Of a stretch of DNA of 64,000 nucleotides, positions 52,471 to 64,000 are shown in pieces. The position numbers and the translations under genes were made by a program. The DNA is from Paenarthrobacter nicotinovorans (GTDB taxonomy: Bacteria; Actinomycetota; Actinomycetes; Actinomycetales; Micrococcaceae), in contig NZ_CP089293.1 in assembly GCF_021919345.1 (NCBI RefSeq), forward strand, positions 930,001 through 994,000, written 5' to 3'. The number at the start of each line of letters is the position of its first letter. The stretch's first letter is position 1. A model generated the notes under the pieces. That model was not told where the DNA came from and searched no databases. It saw only the letters and a program-made list of their open reading frames with translations.

Positions 52471-52835
52471 CCGAGGTCGCCAGCACCCACCGAAACCGAG
52501 TCGTCGGGTGAAAAGATACTGACCGAGAAGGATCCCGAGTCCAAGTCCGTGGTCTTCTCCAGCATGTCCGGGAGGGCCTCTTCCAGGGCCTGTGCAAGCG
52601 CGGCGTGCTCGGAGCCGGTTCCTGTGAGCTTGGCGGTGATGAAGTTGCCGGACGTATTCATGTTCACGTGGACCTGGGCGTCCTTTACTCCCGGCACGGA
52701 CGCAGCAGCGTCCTGCATGTCCTTGCCGAGCCGCTCGGCTTTGGACGGGCCACCCACACCGCAAGCCGTGATGCCCAGAATCAGCATCATGATGATCAGG
52801 GCCGGCACCGGCTTGGGAAGTTTCTTCAAGGTCAC
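52413..52835 (-). CDS. Small lipoprotein, last gene of the WXG-hydrolase operon
   Basis: 140 residues. A signal with lipobox GITAC (LILGITACG) is followed by a mature domain of about 115 residues (SKAERLGKDMQDAAASVPGVKDAQVHVNMNTSGNFITAKLTGTGSEHAALAQALEEALPDMLE...), an alternating alpha/beta pattern. Its start overlaps the hydrolase stop by 4 bases (ATGA), so it is made together with it. Function not recognised; it could be an immunity or carrier lipoprotein, which is inference. Its 3' end overlaps the DUF998 gene. Confidence 0.75.
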   Translation of the reverse strand: MTLKKLPKPVPALIIMMLILGITACGVGGPSKAERLGKDMQDAAASVPGVKDAQVHVNMNTSGNFITAKLTGTGSEHAALAQALEEALPDMLEKTTDLDSGSFSVSIFSPDDSVSVGAGDLGYAGGTSLVDFREYFLNRP

Positions 52836-54286
52836 TGCTTTCGGGAGATGTTGGACACGGTTGAGGACACCTGGCCGGCATCGCTTGTGAGGAACTGCTG
52901 GGTGGATTCCTTTTGACTGTACTGGGCGATGGGACCCCCGGCTTCCTGCTGCGCTACCGAGTCAACGTAACGGTAGGAGTCGTGGTAGCTGATTCCGGCG
53001 AATCCCGGGTCGATGTCCGGATTGGGCAGCGTCACCACCAGGGCGTTGTTGTCCCGGCTCGTGGTGATGCTGCCGCCGGGAAGCAAAGTGGCATCCGCCA
53101 GGTCCACCTGCGGGACGGGGTCACCGGCGTGCTGAAGGGCCAGGACGTCGATGGATGCCGGGATGGGGGCCGAATCCACCGGCGATCCGTACGTGACAAC
53201 GTTGGTGACGTTGAACCTGTCGGTGAAGCTGCTGTCGGATGCCAAGGCCGTGGCGATCATGCCGCCCTGCGAATGACCTGACAGCATCACCGGTGCGTCC
53301 TGGGGAATGCCGGCTTTCTCCATGGCGATGCGGACCGCTTGGGCGGCAGTGGACAGGTTCCCACCGGCAAGTTCAAGGTTCCCGGTGAGATCGGTGGGGT
53401 TGGCCGCGCCGTCCGGCATCCACCGGGTGGTTCCTGGAATGCTGATGATGTAGGCAGGGGGACTGCCCGGCTTGTCGACTGTGGTGATCCGGATCCCGGT
53501 ATCTTCCGTGCCCGCGATTCCTGCGTCGGCGTAGGCTGCGTCGGTGGCGGCCAGGACGGAGCTGATGGTTGACGGCACGGGCGTGACCGGCCTGCCGTTC
53601 ACGTCGGCGGTTCCGGGTTTGCCAACGCTCAGGGGGTTGGGCTCGCCGGCCACCGGCCTGCCGTCATCCATCAAATGCGGATTGTGGAAGCCGAAACTCG
53701 TCACCGTCGCGGCTGTGTTCAGTGTCGCCGCTACGAACAGCACTCCGTTGGACACCAGCTGGGTGATCGACGGTGGCTCGCCCGAGGTCAGCCACCCCCA
53801 GCCCATGTTCACGAAGTCGCCCAGCCGCGAGGCACGGTTTTCCTCGGCATCCATGAGGTTCCCCACAGGGAGGGGAGCCAGGTCCTGGGCAAGGTTCCAC
53901 ATGGTGGACGCAGTGCCTGCCAACAGGCTGGTGACTTTTCCGCTGGCATCCCACAGGTCCCCAGCCTCCCCGGCGGCGGCGTCCAGGAGCCGGTCAAGGA
54001 CGGACGGATTCCCGGAGCCGGCCGCGGTGGTACTGGCGGCCATTTGCTCGTCGACGTTGCGTTGCACGGCACTGGAGGCGGCGGCGAGCGCATGCCCTGC
54101 CGCGATGAGCTGGCTGCGGTAGGCCATCCACTCCTGCGTGAAGCGCTTCCCGTCATCGCCGTGCCAGTCCACACCGGTGATCAAGGGAGTGAGGTTGCCG
54201 CTCAGGTCCAGCAGGCGTTGGCTGCTGCGGGCAAACTCTTTGCTGAGGCGTCGCCCGCCCTCCACATCCATTCCGTAAAGGCTCAT
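52832..54286 (-). CDS. WXG-type N-terminus fused to an alpha/beta-hydrolase (putative type VII effector)
   Basis: 484 residues. Residues 1-85 form a helical hairpin with a WHG turn (41-43), the WXG100/LXG-like export layout. A helical linker follows. The C-terminal domain has the nucleophile elbow GHSQGG (S339), a later Asp (HAGDPVP) and His (SYHDSYRY), a complete triad of lipase/esterase type. So it could be a secreted lipase, toxin or wall-lipid esterase. No Sec signal peptide. The start overlaps the upstream gene by 4 bases (ATGA). Confidence 0.82.
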   Translation of the reverse strand: MSLYGMDVEGGRRLSKEFARSSQRLLDLSGNLTPLITGVDWHGDDGKRFTQEWMAYRSQLIAAGHALAAASSAVQRNVDEQMAASTTAAGSGNPSVLDRLLDAAAGEAGDLWDASGKVTSLLAGTASTMWNLAQDLAPLPVGNLMDAEENRASRLGDFVNMGWGWLTSGEPPSITQLVSNGVLFVAATLNTAATVTSFGFHNPHLMDDGRPVAGEPNPLSVGKPGTADVNGRPVTPVPSTISSVLAATDAAYADAGIAGTEDTGIRITTVDKPGSPPAYIISIPGTTRWMPDGAANPTDLTGNLELAGGNLSTAAQAVRIAMEKAGIPQDAPVMLSGHSQGGMIATALASDSSFTDRFNVTNVVTYGSPVDSAPIPASIDVLALQHAGDPVPQVDLADATLLPGGSITTSRDNNALVVTLPNPDIDPGFAGISYHDSYRYVDSVAQQEAGGPIAQYSQKESTQQFLTSDAGQVSSTVSNISRKQ

Positions 54287-56854: not shown

Positions 56855-57280
56855 ATGCAAGGCATTGGTGGTCCCAGCCTTCCACGGCTGACGCAAGACA
56901 TGCGGCCCCTTGGCTGCCCGCACTGCGGAACGAACGAAAATGTTGCCATCGAATCCATCGAGTCCCTGCCGCCGCATCCGGGCGAACTGCAGGTCCAGGT
57001 CGGGTACGTCTGCCGCAAATGCCAAGGCAACTACCTGCACAGGGCACGGTTCCGTGATGTGGCAGCGGTCCTGAACAAGGTGCGCTCGCTGGAGGGATTG
57101 CTCCGCTTCGCAGGAGAGTACTTCCATTGCGGCGAAGCAATGTCCCTGGCAGGCTCCAACGTCAAGAGCATCTACGCGCCCTTGTCGACCGACGAACCCG
57201 GCGGCGACGCTTCGGCAGTCGACGTCGGCACGAAGTTGCTGCGGTGTCAGTGCGGCTTCCAGCTGGAACTGCCGGACTGA
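56855..57280 (+). CDS. Zinc-ribbon-like hypothetical protein
   Basis: 141 residues. Four Cys pairs, CPHCG (about 21-24), CRKC (near 53), FHCG (near 90) and CQCG (near 133), suggest two zinc-ribbon-type sites. There is no membrane segment. A helical middle (FRDVAAVLNKVRSLEGLLRFAGEYF) separates them. It is not a recognised transcription factor. Probably a DNA- or RNA-binding protein, by fold only. The gene before it and the surface-protein gene after it are separated by more than 100 bases each. Confidence 0.62.
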   Translation: MQGIGGPSLPRLTQDMRPLGCPHCGTNENVAIESIESLPPHPGELQVQVGYVCRKCQGNYLHRARFRDVAAVLNKVRSLEGLLRFAGEYFHCGEAMSLAGSNVKSIYAPLSTDEPGGDASAVDVGTKLLRCQCGFQLELPD

Positions 57281-57451: not shown

Positions 57452-58741
57452 TTGAACAGCAAGAGCAAGCTGTGGCCCACAGCCGTCGGCGTCACCGCCG
57501 TATCGGCCTTGGCAATCGGCCTCGTGGCCGCACCAGCCGCAAACGCAGCGCCCACCGACGTCATCTCGGTGGGCAGCGGACAGATCATCGATGGTTCTGT
57601 CCTGACACTTCCGAACTTTGCCAACCTGGCATCCAACGGAGCAGCAACTGCCCAGCAGATCGGCACCCCGCCGAGCGGCCCGGCAGTCATTGAGGCCACC
57701 GACCCGCTGGATCTCAGCGCAGTCTTCGGCGTCGTCAACGTGGGCGCGGGCAACATCCCGCTGCTCCAGAACAACGGCATCATCCAGGTTGGTGCTGTCA
57801 GCCAGTACGGCAAGGCAGTCAACGATGGTTCCTCGGAAGCATTCTCCGGTACCGTGAGCGGCGCTCCCGGTCTGGTGACCCTGCCCGGCGGCCTTCCCAC
57901 GTCCGGCGATCCTGCCATCCCGGCAGCCCGCGTCAGCCTCGGCACTGCAGCCATCCTCGGTGGCACGGACCTGGTCAACGTCAACCTTCAGGTGGCCACC
58001 CTCGCGGCGGCAGCCAAGAAGGACCAGGGTGCAGCCCCCCAGGGTGCCTACTCACTGGCCGGCGTTTCGGCTGAAGTCGGCGGCACTGTCATTGGCGGCG
58101 TCGCAGGCACCATCAGCACCGCCATCAACACGGCCAACGCCGTCCTGACCCCCTTGGGCGTCACGGTGGCCAACCCGGTGGCCGGTGGAACCATCTCCAT
58201 CACCGAGGCAGACCTGCTGGCCGTTGCCGGCGTGCCGGACCTGAACTCCCTGCCGGCCGGAACCGACCTGATCTCGTTCCTGCCGCAGGCTGTTGCCAAC
58301 AAGCTGACCTCCATCGTCAGCAGCACCCTGGCAACCGCCACGGCCGCCGTGAACGGTCTTGGACCGATCGCCCAGCTCGTCGCAGGACCTGCCCTGTCTG
58401 TCCTGACCACCACCCTGAACGGCGTGACCGGAGCAGTTGCTACCAGCGTTGTGGCTCCTTTGAGCACCGCGCTGACCGCCCTCGTTTCGGCCAAGGTCAA
58501 CGTCCAGGAAACCGCTCCGTCGGGGGCCTTTACCCAGCGCGCCCTGCAGATCGCCGTTGCCGGCGGCTCCATCGCCACCGTCAACCTGGCCAACGCAACC
58601 GTCGGACCCAACCTTGACGCAGCGGCGATCCCGCTGGTCAACGCCGACACCATGGCCATCAGCGGTGGCGTGGCCCTCCTGGCTCTGCTCACCTGGTTGT
58701 TCGTCCGCTCACGCCGCCGCACCGCGGTAGCCGCTGTCTGA
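57452..58741 (+). CDS. Choice-of-anchor G-type surface protein with C-terminal sorting signal
   Basis: 429 residues from TTG 57452 (SD GGGGGA). A cleavable signal peptide (VGVTAVSALAIGLVAAPAANA) is followed by an Ala/Gly/Val/Thr-rich beta-type ectodomain. It ends in a sorting-like tail: ADTMAISGG, a hydrophobic helix (VALLALLTWLFV) and RSRRR. This tripartite end is typical of sortase/exosortase substrates and fits the choice-of-anchor G family in actinobacteria. The exosortase-family gene lies 1.7 kb downstream in the same locus, so it is the probable substrate. Confidence 0.82.
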   Translation: MNSKSKLWPTAVGVTAVSALAIGLVAAPAANAAPTDVISVGSGQIIDGSVLTLPNFANLASNGAATAQQIGTPPSGPAVIEATDPLDLSAVFGVVNVGAGNIPLLQNNGIIQVGAVSQYGKAVNDGSSEAFSGTVSGAPGLVTLPGGLPTSGDPAIPAARVSLGTAAILGGTDLVNVNLQVATLAAAAKKDQGAAPQGAYSLAGVSAEVGGTVIGGVAGTISTAINTANAVLTPLGVTVANPVAGGTISITEADLLAVAGVPDLNSLPAGTDLISFLPQAVANKLTSIVSSTLATATAAVNGLGPIAQLVAGPALSVLTTTLNGVTGAVATSVVAPLSTALTALVSAKVNVQETAPSGAFTQRALQIAVAGGSIATVNLANATVGPNLDAAAIPLVNADTMAISGGVALLALLTWLFVRSRRRTAVAAV

Positions 58742-58780
58742 TCGCCCCGGCGATCACGCACGGCGAAAGGAGAACAGTCA

Positions 58781-58963
58781 ATGTACGGCAATAACTGGAC
58801 CGCAGGCGGTACCGCCGCCGGCGGTACCACGCTCGCTGTCACGGGAGCCCCAACCCTTGGTTGGGTCATCCTCGTGGGGGTAGCCCTGCTGATTACCGGT
58901 TTTGTAGTCCTGCGAAACAGCAGGCTCAAAGCCGCAAAGCGGGGAGCACATCCCAACTCGTAA
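58781..58963 (+). CDS. 60-residue protein that is almost only a sorting-signal-like tail (LAVTG, helix, basic end)
   Basis: ATG 58781 has a strong AAAGGAG SD. After a Gly/Ala/Thr-rich start comes LAVTG (18-22), then a hydrophobic helix (GWVILVGVALLITGFVVL) and a basic tail (RNSRLKAAKRG). LAXTG is the motif of actinobacterial class E sortases. There is no signal peptide upstream of it, so its topology is unclear. It lies between the choice-of-anchor protein and the glycosyltransferase. It may be a mini-anchor or a fusion partner. Confidence 0.75.
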   Translation: MYGNNWTAGGTAAGGTTLAVTGAPTLGWVILVGVALLITGFVVLRNSRLKAAKRGAHPNS

Positions 58964-59051
58964 TACCATCGGCGGGGCGGCTCTTTCCGGGCCGTCCCGC
59001 CATCCCCATTTTTCCCGGGCCTTTCCGGCCTCGCCCAAGCATCGGAAGTAA

Positions 59052-60413
59052 ATGTCGGTACTCGAATCCGCACAGGCGCTGGCTTTTGTGCTCCTGGTGG
59101 TTTTTCTGTCGTACATCCTGGTGATTCTGGTGCCCTTCCTCCGGCGCAAACCCGATCCCGAGGGCGATCCCGACTCTTTCTCGTGGCATGTGTTCATTCC
59201 GTGCCGCGATGAAGAAGTGGTGATCGGCGAAACCCTGGGATTGCTCCGCAGGCAATTCCCGCAGGCCCACGTATGGGTTGTCGATGACGACAGCGACGAC
59301 GCCACCGCCGACATCGTGGACGCGGCCTCTGAGCGCGACGCCATGATCCACCTCGTTCGCCGTCGCCGGCCACTGGCCCGCACCGGCAAGGGAGATGCGC
59401 TTAACGCGGCCTACCGCACTTTGGACGGTTGGCTGCCCGCCGACGTCGACCGGTCGTCGGTGATTGTCCTGGTGGTCGACGCCGATGGCCACCTGGCTGA
59501 CAATGCGTTCCGTCAGGCGGCTGGTCCCCTGGCGTTCGGTGACCCGGAAGTCGGCGCCGCCCAAACCGCCGTCTGGATGTCCAACCTGCAGGACCCGGCC
59601 CTCGAAGGCGGCACCGGGATGCAGCGTCTCAGGAAGTCCTTCGGACGGTACCTGGTCCTGATGCAGGACATGGAGTTCCGCACCACCATCGCGGCCATGC
59701 AGTCCCTTCGGCGGCACACCCTGACGGTCGGCCTGGGCGGCAACGGCCAGTTCACGCGGTTGTCCGCCCTGGATGTCATCGCCAGGACGTCCGGCCAGCC
59801 ATGGCACGGGGCGCTCCTTGAAGATTACGAACTCGCGATCCACATCATGCTGGGTGGTTACAAGACCGTCTACATGCATGACACCCACGTAGCCCAGGAA
59901 GCACTCCCTGACCTCCGCAGGCTCCTCACGCAACGCACGCGGTGGTGCCACGGCGGCATGCAGTGCAGCGTCTACCTCAAGCGGATCTTCGAATCGCCCT
60001 ACTTCAGCAACGTCGGCGCGATCGAATCCAGCTACTTCCTGGTCCAGCCTTTCATCCAGATTCTCGGCTTGGTCCTGTGGCCAACGCTGTTTATCACCAT
60101 GGTGGCGCAGGGCTCATTGACCATGGGCAGCTTTGGCGCCTGGATCAGTGCGGCATGGTTCATCATTCCCCTGATCTTCGCAACAGGCGTGCTGCCGTTC
60201 GCGCTGTGGGGCCTGGTGTACCGGAAGCAGGTCACACCGGAGAAGAACTTCATGCTCGGTGTCCTCTGGGGCTTCGGCTACTGGCTCTACATGTACCAGA
60301 ATTACGTCACGGTGCTCAGGGCAACCTACCGCCTCATCACAGGACGGCAGGGGTGGGCCAAGACCCGCCGCAACCAGGAGACAGACGTCAAACTCCTAGC
60401 GAAGGAAGCCTAG
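59052..60413 (+). CDS. Processive family-2 glycosyltransferase
   Basis: 453 residues. One N-terminal helix, then a GT-A domain with VFIPCRDEEVVIGETLG, the VDDDSDD loop, the DxD-like VVDADGH, the acceptor-side LLEDYELAI and the QRTRWCHGG motif (QxxRW), found in processive enzymes such as cellulose, hyaluronan or poly-GlcNAc synthases. Three or four membrane helices follow. It should build or extend a surface polysaccharide. The exosortase start overlaps its TAG stop (TAGTG). Confidence 0.92.
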   Translation: MSVLESAQALAFVLLVVFLSYILVILVPFLRRKPDPEGDPDSFSWHVFIPCRDEEVVIGETLGLLRRQFPQAHVWVVDDDSDDATADIVDAASERDAMIHLVRRRRPLARTGKGDALNAAYRTLDGWLPADVDRSSVIVLVVDADGHLADNAFRQAAGPLAFGDPEVGAAQTAVWMSNLQDPALEGGTGMQRLRKSFGRYLVLMQDMEFRTTIAAMQSLRRHTLTVGLGGNGQFTRLSALDVIARTSGQPWHGALLEDYELAIHIMLGGYKTVYMHDTHVAQEALPDLRRLLTQRTRWCHGGMQCSVYLKRIFESPYFSNVGAIESSYFLVQPFIQILGLVLWPTLFITMVAQGSLTMGSFGAWISAAWFIIPLIFATGVLPFALWGLVYRKQVTPEKNFMLGVLWGFGYWLYMYQNYVTVLRATYRLITGRQGWAKTRRNQETDVKLLAKEA

Positions 60414-61012
60414 TGGCCATGAGCGCCGAAGCCGGCAACATCAGCGTCCCCACCGGACCCCGTGCGATCCCCGTACGGAAGGCCCGTGGCGGGGGTCTCA
60501 TCGGGCTGGTCTTCATCGCTGCCGCGGCTGCGGCCATGCTGCAGCAGGAGCACATCAGGGCAGCCGAAGCCTGGCTCATGTCCGCCATTCTCGACGGCGT
60601 CCTCGGCGGGGCTTCCTACAGCGTGGGCGACATCATTTTCCACAATGTGGGCGGGGGCCAGCCCTTCGCCCTCCAAGTCACCGGGCTGTGCTCCAGCGCC
60701 GTCCTCCTCACGCCGATCGCAGGCCTCGCCGGGATTCTTTTCCTGATGGGACGCATCCCCGTCTCCCGGCTCATGCCCGCGGCCCTCATCGCACTCCTCA
60801 TAGTCTGCATCAGCAACGCAACCCGCTATTTCATGATCGCAGCGGCGCAACAGAGCTGGGGGCAGCAGGGATTCGATGTCATGCACCACTTCCTGGGTTC
60901 CTTCGTGGTGATTTTCGGCTTCGTCGCGGCCATCATCGTGCTGGTCCGGGCCGCCGTCGTCCGCAAAGACCGTGCAGCGACCCGCAGCAAGGGCCGGCGT
61001 GCGTCCTCGTAG
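60413..61012 (+). CDS. Exosortase/archaeosortase-family membrane protease
   Basis: 199 residues from GTG 60413, in the TAGTG overlap with the glycosyltransferase, AAGGA 6 nt before; ATG 60419 is the alternative. Several hydrophobic helices hold the family triad: C93 (VTGLCSSA), R138 (SNATRY) and H158 (HHFLGS, the HxxxG). Exosortases cleave C-terminal sorting tails and attach proteins to the surface. It is small for the family but complete. The likely substrate is the protein at 57452. Confidence 0.82.
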   Translation: MAMSAEAGNISVPTGPRAIPVRKARGGGLIGLVFIAAAAAAMLQQEHIRAAEAWLMSAILDGVLGGASYSVGDIIFHNVGGGQPFALQVTGLCSSAVLLTPIAGLAGILFLMGRIPVSRLMPAALIALLIVCISNATRYFMIAAAQQSWGQQGFDVMHHFLGSFVVIFGFVAAIIVLVRAAVVRKDRAATRSKGRRASS

Positions 61013-61880
61013 TCTGTTCCGGGCGTCGGCCGTCATGGCCGCGGTGATGATAACGGCAGCCTTGGCCGCCTGTGATGAAGGAAAACAAGGGGTGGACACG
61101 GCGAGTCCGGAAACAGGACTCTGCCATGCCGTGGTGTCCCCGGAAGAATTCGATGCCAGCAGCGAAGCCAGCCCGCCTGTTTCCTGCACCGAACGCCACA
61201 CCACCCAGACTTTCCTGGTCACGACGATGCCCGAACCCCTGGCCCGCCAGGAGTCACGTCCCAACCAGCAGCAGCTCAAGGCTGCCGGCAAACGGCTGTG
61301 CACCAGCGAGGACCTGCGTACTTATCTCTCCGCGTCCGACAGGGACGGGACCTTCGGACTGGCGGTCACCAGTTACTTCCCTGACAGGGACGCTTGGGCT
61401 GCCGGCAGCCGGGCGGTTCGTTGCGACGTAGCGGTCACGGACCAAGACGGCACCCCGCAGGAAACCGGCCTTGACCTCAAGGATGCTTTGGCGGGACCAC
61501 ACTCGGCAGCGGTACGGCTCTGCTACCGGCAGGAATACAAGGACGGCGTTCTTTCTGACGACGGAACCGATGTCCCGTGTTCGGAGCCCCATACCGCGGA
61601 GGACATCAGCGCATGGATCGCCCAGGACGCGTCACTGGCAACACCCGTGGCGCGTGAAGCGCGTTGCCTTCCCTATGCGCTCGAATTCCTCGGCACGCAA
61701 AAACTGCCGGCAGGCGTCACAGTCCATCCCATCATCCGGACGGTGGGCACTGCCCGGACCGTCCGCTGCGCCGTGGCTTCCGCCCGGCAGCCAGTACCGG
61801 GTGAAGCTCCGGAATTGGTGACTGGAACCCTGGCTCCCGTGCGCGTGCCTGTCACCGGGGGAGCAGTAAACAATGGCTGA
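60999..61880 (+). CDS. Lipoprotein with septum-formation-type (DUF) repeats
   Basis: 293 residues from GTG 60999 (AAGGG, 5 nt), overlapping the exosortase end by 14 bases. Signal with lipobox LAACDEG. Two related segments follow, each with Cys and CxE(P/R)HT (VSCTERHTTQTF and VPCSEPHTAEDI), the pattern of Septum_form-type domains, which may carry disulfides. Function unsettled; proximity suggests help in presenting the surface protein or glycan. The next gene overlaps its end by 8 bases. Confidence 0.8.
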   Translation: MRPRSLFRASAVMAAVMITAALAACDEGKQGVDTASPETGLCHAVVSPEEFDASSEASPPVSCTERHTTQTFLVTTMPEPLARQESRPNQQQLKAAGKRLCTSEDLRTYLSASDRDGTFGLAVTSYFPDRDAWAAGSRAVRCDVAVTDQDGTPQETGLDLKDALAGPHSAAVRLCYRQEYKDGVLSDDGTDVPCSEPHTAEDISAWIAQDASLATPVAREARCLPYALEFLGTQKLPAGVTVHPIIRTVGTARTVRCAVASARQPVPGEAPELVTGTLAPVRVPVTGGAVNNG

Positions 61881-63600
61881 TCAAGGATCCGGGAGCGCCA
61901 CGCAGCTCCGTGAACGTGGCGGGAAAGCGCAGAGAACGTTCACTCCTGCCCCTGTGCGCGGACGCAAGGGCACCAAGGCCCGTCCGCTCGGCAGCCTGGG
62001 ACGATACTTTGCGAGGACCTTCGGTCCCGGTACCTTGACGCTGGGACCAGTCCACGGCGCGGCCCTGATCGCGGGGCTGGTAGCGGCCGCCCTCATGATG
62101 GTCCGGCTGTTCATTCCGGAACCTGTGGGGATGGGGGACCAGGGCGAGGGGCATGGTTTGCTGTGCTCCCTGGGGGTCATGAACCAACGGCCCTGGGATT
62201 ACGCGGGGTTCACGAAGTACATCCACCCTTCCTGGGTCCCGCACCAGTTCTACGGTGAAGGCTGCGGCGCCAACGGCACCGGGGAGCCGTACTACTCTTC
62301 CCAGCTGCTGTTCCTGTGGTTGGGGAAACTGCTGACACCCCTCCTGGGCTGGGGACCGGGGCTGGACACCCGTGCCGTTGGAATCGTCTGCTGTGTGGTC
62401 TTCGGATTGCTGATCGCGGCCCTGATCAACGTGCTGCCTGGCCGGACCTGGTTCCGTATCCTCATCGCCGCGCTGGTCACCGGGGTGATGGCAGACGGCG
62501 TCTTCGCTGATTTCTTCGTCTCGCCCTACAGCGAACCCGCGGCCTTCCTTGGCGTTCTTGCCGTGTCCGTTGCGCTGCTCCACTACTGGAACGGCAGCGG
62601 TCCGCGGTGGCTGGCTTTGCTGCTGGTCGTCTTCGCGACGGTCTTTACCGTTGCGGCAAAAACACAAACTGTCTCGTGGCTGCCCGTTATTGCCCTGGCG
62701 CTGCTCTGGGTGCCGTGGCGGCGGGGCACAGCGGACGGTGAGGCGGCCGTCGTCGTGCCTCCGTCCGACGGCAAACCGGCCGACGGCGCGCTCGGCAGGG
62801 GTCGACAGTGGCGCGCGCTAATGCTGCCCGCGACGGCGGTGCTGCTCATCGTTGCGTTTTCGGTGGCATTCATCAACGTCCAACCCAAGCGCTTCTCGGA
62901 AGTGAACCTTTACAACGCCGTCTTTGTGGAGCTTCTTCCGTACAGCCCAACCCCTGAGGCAGACCTCGAATGGTTGGGGCTGGACCCAAGTTTCATCAAC
63001 TCCATGGACACTACGGTGGCCTCCACACGTTCGGCTGTTTACAACCCGCTGTACCCCCAGTTCCAGGAGAAGATCAGCCTGGGCACGATCGCCGGTTTTT
63101 ACGCCACGCATCCGGAACGGCTCATCACCATGGGCGAACGCGGAGTGACTGCCATGCTGACTCCGGAACTGGGCTATGTTGGCTCGTACCTTGAGGGTTC
63201 CGATCATGGCCCTTATGAAAAGGAACGGCGTTTTCCCGTGGTGTTGGGCTTGTTCAGCGCCGTAAAAGCTGCTCCGGTGGCCTTCGTCGGGATGCAGTTG
63301 GTGACGTTGCTGCTGGGCCTGGCCGTGGCTTTCCGGAAGCGGAGTGCCGTGGGAAGGCTGGCGGTCATCATGGTGCTGGGATGCTGGTTCCAGTTCTGGG
63401 CCGTCATGCTCAATGGCGGCCAGGCCGAAATTTACAAGCAGATGATCATTGCGGGCTACATGGCGGCTTTGTGCGGGCCATTGCTGGTGGCCCTGATCAG
63501 CATCCTGGCTTCGGATCCGGGGAAGGTGCCGGCGCGAAAGCGCAGGGGCCGGCGGGCCAAGGCACAGCAAGGGTCAGCTGATCCAGCCATCGTTGCTTAA
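61873..63600 (+). CDS. Polytopic membrane protein, possible GT-C-type glycosyltransferase
   Basis: 575 residues, about 11 hydrophobic helices. A large loop follows the first helix with GMGDQGEGHGLLCS, an acidic patch like the catalytic loop of GT-C enzymes using polyprenyl-linked sugars, and another extracytoplasmic loop has FVELLPYSPTPEADLEWLGLDPSFINSMD. It would transfer or polymerise sugar on the outer face. This is a fold guess only. It overlaps the lipoprotein gene by 8 bases and, convergently, the regulator gene by 27 bases. Confidence 0.6.
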   Translation: MADQGSGSATQLRERGGKAQRTFTPAPVRGRKGTKARPLGSLGRYFARTFGPGTLTLGPVHGAALIAGLVAAALMMVRLFIPEPVGMGDQGEGHGLLCSLGVMNQRPWDYAGFTKYIHPSWVPHQFYGEGCGANGTGEPYYSSQLLFLWLGKLLTPLLGWGPGLDTRAVGIVCCVVFGLLIAALINVLPGRTWFRILIAALVTGVMADGVFADFFVSPYSEPAAFLGVLAVSVALLHYWNGSGPRWLALLLVVFATVFTVAAKTQTVSWLPVIALALLWVPWRRGTADGEAAVVVPPSDGKPADGALGRGRQWRALMLPATAVLLIVAFSVAFINVQPKRFSEVNLYNAVFVELLPYSPTPEADLEWLGLDPSFINSMDTTVASTRSAVYNPLYPQFQEKISLGTIAGFYATHPERLITMGERGVTAMLTPELGYVGSYLEGSDHGPYEKERRFPVVLGLFSAVKAAPVAFVGMQLVTLLLGLAVAFRKRSAVGRLAVIMVLGCWFQFWAVMLNGGQAEIYKQMIIAGYMAALCGPLLVALISILASDPGKVPARKRRGRRAKAQQGSADPAIVA

Positions 63601-64000
63601 CTGCTTGCGGAGGCTGATGACATTGCCGAGCTTGATGCCGGCCGTGGCGTAGCGCTGCCGGATCCGGTGAAGGTGCGCCTTGACTGTTTGCTCGCTGATT
63701 CCCATGGCATCCGCAACGCCACGAACGGACATGGCGTCACTGCCGAGGTACAGCTCGGCAAGACGCTGTTCCCGGGGTGAAAGTGTGATGCGCAGCGGTG
63801 TGCTGTTGTCATGACCGGCCAGGACGTCAGGATGCAGATATTCCTGTCCGGATGCAGCGGCGCGGAGGGCGAGTTCCGTGTGCCGGGGGCCGGCTGCCTT
63901 GGGCACATAACCCAAGGCACCGGCAGAGCGGACCGCGCCCGCATCCCAGCGGTCCAGGGCGGTGGCAAGGACTACCACCCGCAATCCGGCCCGCACCAGC
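63574..64000 (-). CDS. LuxR/NarL-type response regulator, C-terminal part (5' end outside window)
   Basis: The frame is open to the window edge. Visible residues begin in the receiver domain (RVVVLATALDRWDAGAVRSAGALGYVPKAA, with the conserved Lys) and go through the LuxR HTH (LSPREQRLAELYLG...VADAMGISEQTVKAHLHRIRQRY). It overlaps the convergent membrane gene by 27 bases. The phospho-acceptor Asp is beyond the edge. Controlling the neighbouring surface locus is a guess from position. Confidence 0.85.
   Translation of the reverse strand, partial: LVRAGLRVVVLATALDRWDAGAVRSAGALGYVPKAAGPRHTELALRAAASGQEYLHPDVLAGHDNSTPLRITLSPREQRLAELYLGSDAMSVRGVADAMGISEQTVKAHLHRIRQRYATAGIKLGNVISLRKQLSNDGWIS

Follow-up and report, generated by a model that had tools for sequence, protein, structure and literature searches.

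What does a 60-residue protein with a sortase-type motif do in a gene cassette built around an exosortase? The question is raised by a locus of Paenarthrobacter nicotinovorans (contig NZ_CP089293.1; genome size, 4.48 Mb), which lies in the 64,000 nucleotides from position 930,001 to position 994,000; this whole stretch is referred to as the window, and positions are counted from its first letter. An earlier note on the window had described a surface protein, a protease of exosortase layout, and two glycosyltransferases, and had proposed that the protease joins its one substrate to a glycan. Six genes on the same (+) strand were confirmed at 57452-63600, and four of the proteins passed curated NCBI cut-offs that fit such a setting (PVV_CTERM, glyco_with_XrtP, exosort_XrtS, and WsfD). 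At a probability of about one half, we read the cassette as a dedicated exosortase system with two covalent anchoring routes, in which the 60-residue protein (MY-LAxTG mini-protein, or mini) would tether the glycan to the wall or offer it a docking point there.

Judged by its profile matches, the protease encoded at 60419-61012 (+ strand) is exosortase S (XrtS) by NCBI's family name, which is also found in the Paenarthrobacter and Arthrobacter records of NCBI. It scored 190.9 bits against exosort_XrtS (NF033767; cut-off, 145), 31.9 bits against the superfamily model TIGR04178 (cut-off, 23), and a marginal 26.1 bits against the Pfam model Exosortase_EpsH (PF09721; cut-off, 25.7), which bears out the proposed placement of the protein at 60413-61012 in the exosortase superfamily. 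The presumed catalytic residues C93, R138, and H158 (numbered from GTG 60413) were found at the positions given in the earlier note and are conserved among orthologues. They were invariant in 31/31 aligned close sequences, the window's own included, and in 19/19 sequences of a wider alignment covering four families, 14 of which are only 23 to 34% identical to the window XrtS. A pseudo-member of the family was rejected on the basis of this invariance. Matches over the XrtS cut-off were obtained in 22 of the 206 genomes of the genus that were surveyed. No solved structure matched the XrtS profile by sequence (0 at E values up to 1), and, as regards a viral origin, no XrtS relative was confirmed in viral contigs.

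The exosortase gene may well start at ATG 60419 and not at GTG 60413; many relatives begin with MSA... at the position of this ATG, and some carry two extra residues. With this start, the gene is separated by 5 bases from the preceding glycosyltransferase gene and does not overlap it. The exosortase and lipoprotein genes overlap by 14 bases (lipoprotein start, GTG 60999), and the lipoprotein and WsfD genes overlap by 8 bases. Of the serial overlap previously described for the last four genes, the latter two overlaps were thus retained, while that between glycosyltransferase and exosortase disappears if ATG 60419 is used.

The presumed XrtS substrate is a choice-of-anchor G surface protein (57452-58741, + strand; 115 bits against NF033766 choice_anch_G; cut-off, 45), whose start and N terminus were read directly. 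Its TTG start is preceded by the stretch GGGGGAAA, and its N terminus looks like a signal peptide by eye (MNSKSKLWPTAVG...AANAA). The protein ends in a PVV-CTERM sorting tail (58625-58735, + strand) made up of an IPLVNADTM motif, a membrane helix, and RSRRR (53.1 bits against NF051874; cut-off, 27). In a whole-genome search, this tail was the sole PVV-CTERM match of its own genome (59.8 bits), as expected from the earlier proposal of a one-substrate system. Among the 206 genomes of the genus, with at most 34 candidates scored per genome, strong PVV_CTERM matches (52 to 65 bits) were found in 21, one each, all of them within the 22 XrtS genomes. The remaining matches did not exceed 27.4 bits. 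One exception, genome G359, scored 27.4 bits, just over the cut-off, and has no XrtS; the other, G321, has XrtS, the GT2 glycosyltransferase, the mini, the lipoprotein, and WsfD and lacks the PVV tail. By sequence, XrtS and PVV-CTERM co-occur in the manner of a dedicated sorting system; passages of PMC3237569 apply this term to single-target sorting enzymes.

Some further observations concern the surface protein. At the substrate position, G321 carries an acyltransferase-like protein and a protein without an NCBIfam match. The surface-protein gene looks broken at L010:6962-8299, where it matches in two frames, and likewise in G326 (C4:33414), where only a 197-residue open frame is left. The genome of the window encodes a second choice-of-anchor G protein (C1:510405-511298; L247), which has no visible anchor tail; a neighboring gene there ends in an LGSTG-helix-basic tail.

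Two sugar enzymes accompany protease and substrate. The GT2 glycosyltransferase (59052-60413, + strand) matched the XrtP-associated glycosyltransferase family glyco_with_XrtP (NF053846) at 625.6 bits (cut-off, 520). Its D,D,D and QxxRW motifs (DDDS78, DAD143, EDY257, and QRTRW294) are presumably those of polymer-making GT2 enzymes. GT2 enzymes of this XrtS type exceeded the cut-off at 24 places in 23 of the 206 genus genomes, namely, the 22 XrtS genomes and G322, which has an XrtS-like enzyme (90 bits). The last gene (61873-63600, + strand) encodes a WsfD-family hexose transferase (NF051875, 363.8 bits; cut-off, 80) with about 8 hydrophobic segments by hydropathy. The proposal of a dedicated single substrate linked to glycan genes was therefore supported by the single PVV-CTERM match and by the two transferases scoring over curated cut-offs. 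Between XrtS and WsfD lies a Septum_form-domain lipoprotein (60999-61880, + strand, with a possible earlier start at 60972; 75.5 bits against PF13845 in Pfam; cut-off, 25), whose lipobox, ALAAC, was read by eye. A UDP-N-acetylglucosamine 2-epimerase-like gene follows the GT2 or exosortase gene in L077, L078, and L082 (confirmed with Pfam in L077 and L082), which hints at N-acetyl sugars at these loci.

The gene-neighborhood survey suggested in the earlier note showed that the cassette recurs. The block imp - anchorG - mini - GT2 - xrt - lipo - WsfD - luxR was recurrent at 14 named Paenarthrobacter/Arthrobacter loci. The mini and the luxR gene were present at 14/14 of these loci and the lipoprotein and imp at 13/14 each, the gaps being in L021 for the lipoprotein and in L022, which has a short left flank, for imp. 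In L018, WsfD is split into two matching pieces and looks broken. The closest named locus fetched is that of Paenarthrobacter histidinolovorans (97% identity in XrtS). In the 19 XrtS-free genomes carrying the left-flank gene (20 searched), no LuxR gene lies within 1.5 kb of that gene, and a clean empty site was therefore not found.

The mini (58781-58963, + strand) consists of a 17-residue uncharged Gly-rich N-terminal tail headed by Met1-Tyr2, followed by LAVTG, one membrane helix, and a basic end. The features of a sortase substrate (pentapeptide motif, membrane helix, and basic tail) are thus all present. However, no signal peptide was recognizable in the mini; hydropathy showed one hydrophobic stretch, at residues 26 to 44, behind the motif. 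N-out insertion without a signal peptide requires a short uncharged N-terminal tail and a basic C-terminal end. Codon differences from each of eight relatives were mostly silent (for example, 8 silent and 0 changing in L016 and 23 and 5 in L012), and the mini, by this codon pattern, is a real gene. A chance open reading frame was rejected by the silent excess together with the recurrence of the gene. Homologues shown in public records are named "hypothetical protein," save for two, of which one is called "LPXTG cell wall anchor" and the other bears an odd transferase name.

In an alignment of 23 divergent minis, chosen so as to leave out the decayed copies of L222 and L223, the LAYSG copies of L197 and L207, and the frameshifted copy of L206, the only invariant columns were M1, Y2, L18, A19, T21, G22, and R45, an Arg behind the helix. 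LAxTG was present in 116 of the 120 homologues listed (160 were found), with M, L, V, Y, A, S, or F as the middle residue; such counts lean upwards, as the profile of the homologue search contained the motif and the locus-scan scripts required L[AP]xTG. In the same list, Met-Tyr occurred in 113/120 (93 at the annotated start and 20 within 40 residues), and 80 of the 91 homologues having both a Met-Tyr start and the motif were uncharged before the motif. Met-Tyr was taken as the start despite upstream in-frame starts in L010, L017, L018, L020 to L022, L076, L080, L172, L173, and others. Codon 2 is TAC, or TAT in 3/35; it is thus tyrosine itself that is kept and not the codon.

The motif of the mini, LAVTG (58832-58846, + strand; LAxTG in homologues), is presumably recognized by a class E sortase. 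Passages of PMC5148588 give LAXTG as the recognition motif of class E sortases, and the genome's only sortase match is of class E (250.5 bits; cut-off, 160); judged from sequence, cleavage of the mini by this enzyme is therefore likely. Existing family models do not capture the protein. The mini scored 29.8 bits (aligned residues 8 to 50) against LAXTG_small_WW (NF058583; cut-off, 65), which likewise describes a small LAXTG protein, and 23 bits against Microco_LAVTG (NF058582; cut-off, 27). No match over the LAXTG_small_WW cut-off was obtained in the 206 genus genomes; the family searches use a loose first look that can miss copies, and the scan with the LAXTG model missed the window's own mini.

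The most regular neighbor of the mini is the glycosyltransferase. In the genus, a mini adjoins the XrtS-type GT2 at 24/24 places (all 23 scanned, plus L077), and none was found beside the 7 weaker GT2 matches. Across the order, for which 347 genomes, some of them from the genus, were sampled, an exosortase was found in 22 genomes at 23 places, and 10 of these 23 loci, from four families, have a mini (own family, 3/3; f8, 2/2; f19, 1/1; f13, 4/4). Gene orders vary: substrate-mini-GT2-exosortase, substrate-mini-exosortase-GT2, and mini-GT2-exosortase were all observed, and the mini overlaps the substrate gene in L077 to L079. G129, which has three exosortase matches, carries one of them in a locus without a mini (L081) and has an extra mini elsewhere (L246), behind a protein whose tail, by eye, is of the exosortase type; no GT2 lies nearby.

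In loci free of exosortase, a second form of the mini (MYNN...LAMTG) immediately follows another GT2, named GT2b here. The best NCBI match of GT2b is PgaC/IcaA, whose cut-off of 422 bits is far above the score obtained (78 bits). Of the 64 GT2b places at at least 61% identity, 40 were examined, and a small Met-Tyr frame was present in 40/40: 35 with intact LAxTG, 2 with LAYSG, 1 frameshifted, and 2 with a decayed motif. No exosortase was detected in 44 GT2b loci (the 40 and four longer ones), within a stretch of 4 to 13.5 kb each, in a scan for which most positive controls were themselves part of the profile. Of the 40 loci, 27 belong to genomes without any XrtS match. At 10 examined places of a less similar GT2 paralogue (36 places in all), no mini was found. 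The profile search of the window's own genome returned two minis, one per locus, both beside a GT2, and the same search gave no mini match in 5/5 genomes lacking XrtS and GT2b matches. As the mini accompanies such glycosyltransferases even without an exosortase, its partner is, on sequence evidence, probably not just the protease but the GT2 or its product. The earlier note had paired the mini with the exosortase at this one locus; the mini is no locus quirk but a widespread GT2 companion, also where the exosortase is absent. A bystander role was rejected by this constant pairing (24/24, the order families, and 40/40 GT2b loci).

The second locus of the window's genome, with GT2b, a mini, and no exosortase seen, is at C1:3584606-3587561 (L105:4604-7561). 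In the 4/4 GT2b loci drawn (L105 and L108 to L110), a neighboring gene converges on the locus and encodes a protein weakly similar to beta-glucanases (27 bits, below the cut-off). Broken remnants of another XrtS-type GT2 beside an epimerase-like gene were noticed by eye in G322 (C1:2063758; L248) and G321 (C1:3381723; L249), and a mini-like frame remains in L248.

These observations can be combined into a model of three steps. In the first, which the family assignments support well, XrtS would use Cys93, Arg138, and His158 to cut the exported choice-of-anchor G protein at its PVV-CTERM tail and transfer it to an extramembrane acceptor. In the second, as the enzyme families suggest, GT2 would make a surface glycan and the WsfD-type transferase would modify it, with the lipoprotein as a putative helper on the outer face. 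In the third, the mini would insert with its short uncharged N-terminal tail outside, and the housekeeping class E sortase would cut LAxTG. The Met-Tyr-Gly-rich peptide left on the wall would then tether the glycan, or give it a place to dock, and by way of the glycan would do so for the protein processed by XrtS as well. The standing association of the mini with such glycosyltransferases is observed, and its function is what we infer; as a class E sortase substrate, it would tether or serve the glycan at the wall, to which the surface protein may also be joined. The tether or docking reading is favored because the most constant partner of the mini, with or without an exosortase, is a GT2 of the polysaccharide-synthase type.

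Several observations weigh against this model. No mini was found in 13 of the 23 order exosortase loci (f7, 0/4; f14, 0/5; f15, 0/4), some of whose stretches are cut by contig ends; the nine f7 and f14 loci do have a GT2, and the four f15 loci represent another exosortase type. L081, which has both GT2 and exosortase, also lacks the mini, as does L083, where an exosortase stands alone as a relic. A scan of f7, f14, and L081, which did not cover f15, found no small helix protein with a Met-Tyr/Phe/Trp start and an uncharged N-terminal tail. In G321 and G322, both with exosortase, GT2, and mini (L075 and L076), no choice-of-anchor G protein was matched genome-wide. In the GT2b loci, LAxTG has decayed in 2/40 (L222 and L223) and is LAYSG in 2 more, with Met-Tyr and the helix kept, and sortase cleavage may therefore not be the core function. 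Finally, passages of PMC3237569 state that sortase and exosortase substrates always have a signal peptide, and the mini shows none. Alternatives retain weight because of the motif decay in the two GT2b loci, the close or overlapping position of the mini behind the substrate gene, and the G129 loci L081 and L246.

A broader form of the tether model can be put forward tentatively and is on balance doubtful. In Micrococcaceae and some of the families related to them, a sortase might fix the polysaccharides of processive synthases to peptidoglycan via a tiny peptide, with the Met-Tyr end of the mini carrying or capturing the glycan (most obviously through Tyr2), the class E sortase fixing the peptide through LAxTG, and, in XrtS loci, the exosortase adding its protein to the same glycan. 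If true, polysaccharide anchoring of this kind would depend on a sortase.

The alternative that survives best, possible if somewhat doubtful, is that the mini is a small membrane subunit or regulator needed by the polysaccharide synthase, LAxTG serving turnover or a secondary purpose. Some synthases need small partner proteins, such as PgaD for PgaC, and the resemblance of GT2b to PgaC/IcaA, at its low score, is in line with this, as are the constant pairing with two GT2 types, with and without exosortase, and the persistence of Met-Tyr and the helix where LAxTG has decayed. However, an LAxTG motif with a free middle residue in nearly all listed homologues is hard to explain without a sortase, even considering that the search profile contained the motif, and the L246 mini stands beside a protein with an exosortase-type tail with no GT2 nearby.

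It is unlikely that the mini is instead the exosortase acceptor, XrtS joining the PVV-CTERM protein to its free N terminus and the sortase fixing the pair to peptidoglycan. The position of the mini directly after the substrate gene, its overlap with that gene in L077 to L079, the extra mini of G129 in L246, and the invariance of the N-terminal Met-Tyr in the 23 aligned copies would all suit such a role. On the other hand, minis are equally constant behind GT2b without an exosortase, most of these in XrtS-free genomes, and in G321 and G322 both mini and exosortase occur without a choice-of-anchor G substrate. Very unlikely is the model of the earlier note, in which XrtS joins the surface protein to the GT2/WsfD glycan and the mini is an unrelated neighbor, since a protein found at 24/24 XrtS-type GT2 places and also in other gene orders and families is hardly a bystander, even if passages of PMC1569441 have exosortase loci often adjoining exopolysaccharide genes and those of PMC12854382 describe an XrtG system of substrate, exosortase, and two glycosyltransferases in Lactiplantibacillus.

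How much of the locus is new can be judged against described systems. An exosortase with a single substrate and sugar enzymes is an already named kind of system, and the new part is the LAVTG mini-protein partnership. By curated cut-offs, the locus is a member of NCBI's exosortase S (NF033767) and PVV-CTERM (NF051874) families, with no difference seen in enzyme or substrate; the mini partnership is not part of these names. The view that the system is little described therefore failed as far as naming goes and held in that titles and abstract openings yielded no publication on the XrtS/PVV-CTERM system. The nearest described system is XrtG/Firmicu-CTERM of Firmicutes (TIGR03111), which, in passages of PMC12854382, likewise comprises one CTERM substrate, one exosortase, and two glycosyltransferases in Gram-positive bacteria and in which these passages mention no LAxTG mini-protein. 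The locus described here differs from it in exosortase family and tail and has a WsfD-like second transferase and a Septum_form lipoprotein. With the PEP-CTERM/EpsH systems of Gram-negative bacteria, as outlined in parts of PMC1569441, it shares a membrane Cys/Arg/His protease, a tripartite tail, and exopolysaccharide neighbors. However, those systems usually have many substrates and an enzyme of at least eight helices, whereas here there is one substrate, no outer membrane, and an enzyme of about 200 residues. Archaeosortase A, of the same superfamily, also replaces the tail with a covalent anchor, but its acceptor, in passages of PMC7157517, is a lipid, and the cassette described here contains no lipid-head gene. 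Class E sortase substrates such as chaplins (passages of PMC5148588) share LAxTG, helix, and basic tail with the mini, which, in contrast, lacks a recognizable signal peptide and has hardly any body, as just 17 residues precede the motif.

Among the literature listings and passages searched, no publication establishing an exosortase acceptor in Gram-positive bacteria was found, and titles and abstract openings combining LAXTG with glycosyltransferase contained nothing bearing on the mini. Because this soil-bacterial locus combines a single enzyme and a single substrate with a very small partner of strong conservation, the acceptor question is tractable by mass spectrometry. If the mini is a wall tether for a polysaccharide, it would link sortases with the attachment of capsules or exopolysaccharides. 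Even if it is no tether, two fixed motifs and a precisely defined partner in the genome can now be assigned to a family whose members are mostly named "hypothetical protein."

Downstream, a LuxR-type regulator gene (63574-63999, - strand; GerE, 27 bits in Pfam) converges on the cassette and is cut by the window edge. Beside the cassettes of L111 (10129-13159) and L080 (1558-4417), there is a row consisting of a LuxR-type regulator, a protein without a Pfam match, and a HATPase-domain protein, which may be dedicated two-component control. L178, from family f14, has a Septum_form lipoprotein and a WsfD-like gene beside its exosortase and GT2, together with a LuxR gene and no mini; such helpers thus appear to belong to the module more widely. 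Upstream, the phosphatase gene is separated from that of the surface protein by a small gene with CxxC pairs (56855-57280), zinc-ribbon-like by eye, for which no NCBIfam or Pfam family scored over its cut-off and which, among the 14 named loci compared, was found only in the source genome and L016. Further upstream, an alpha/beta hydrolase (52832-54286, - strand) is PGAP1-like and has an N-terminal stretch that resembles WXG-type secretion domains by eye.

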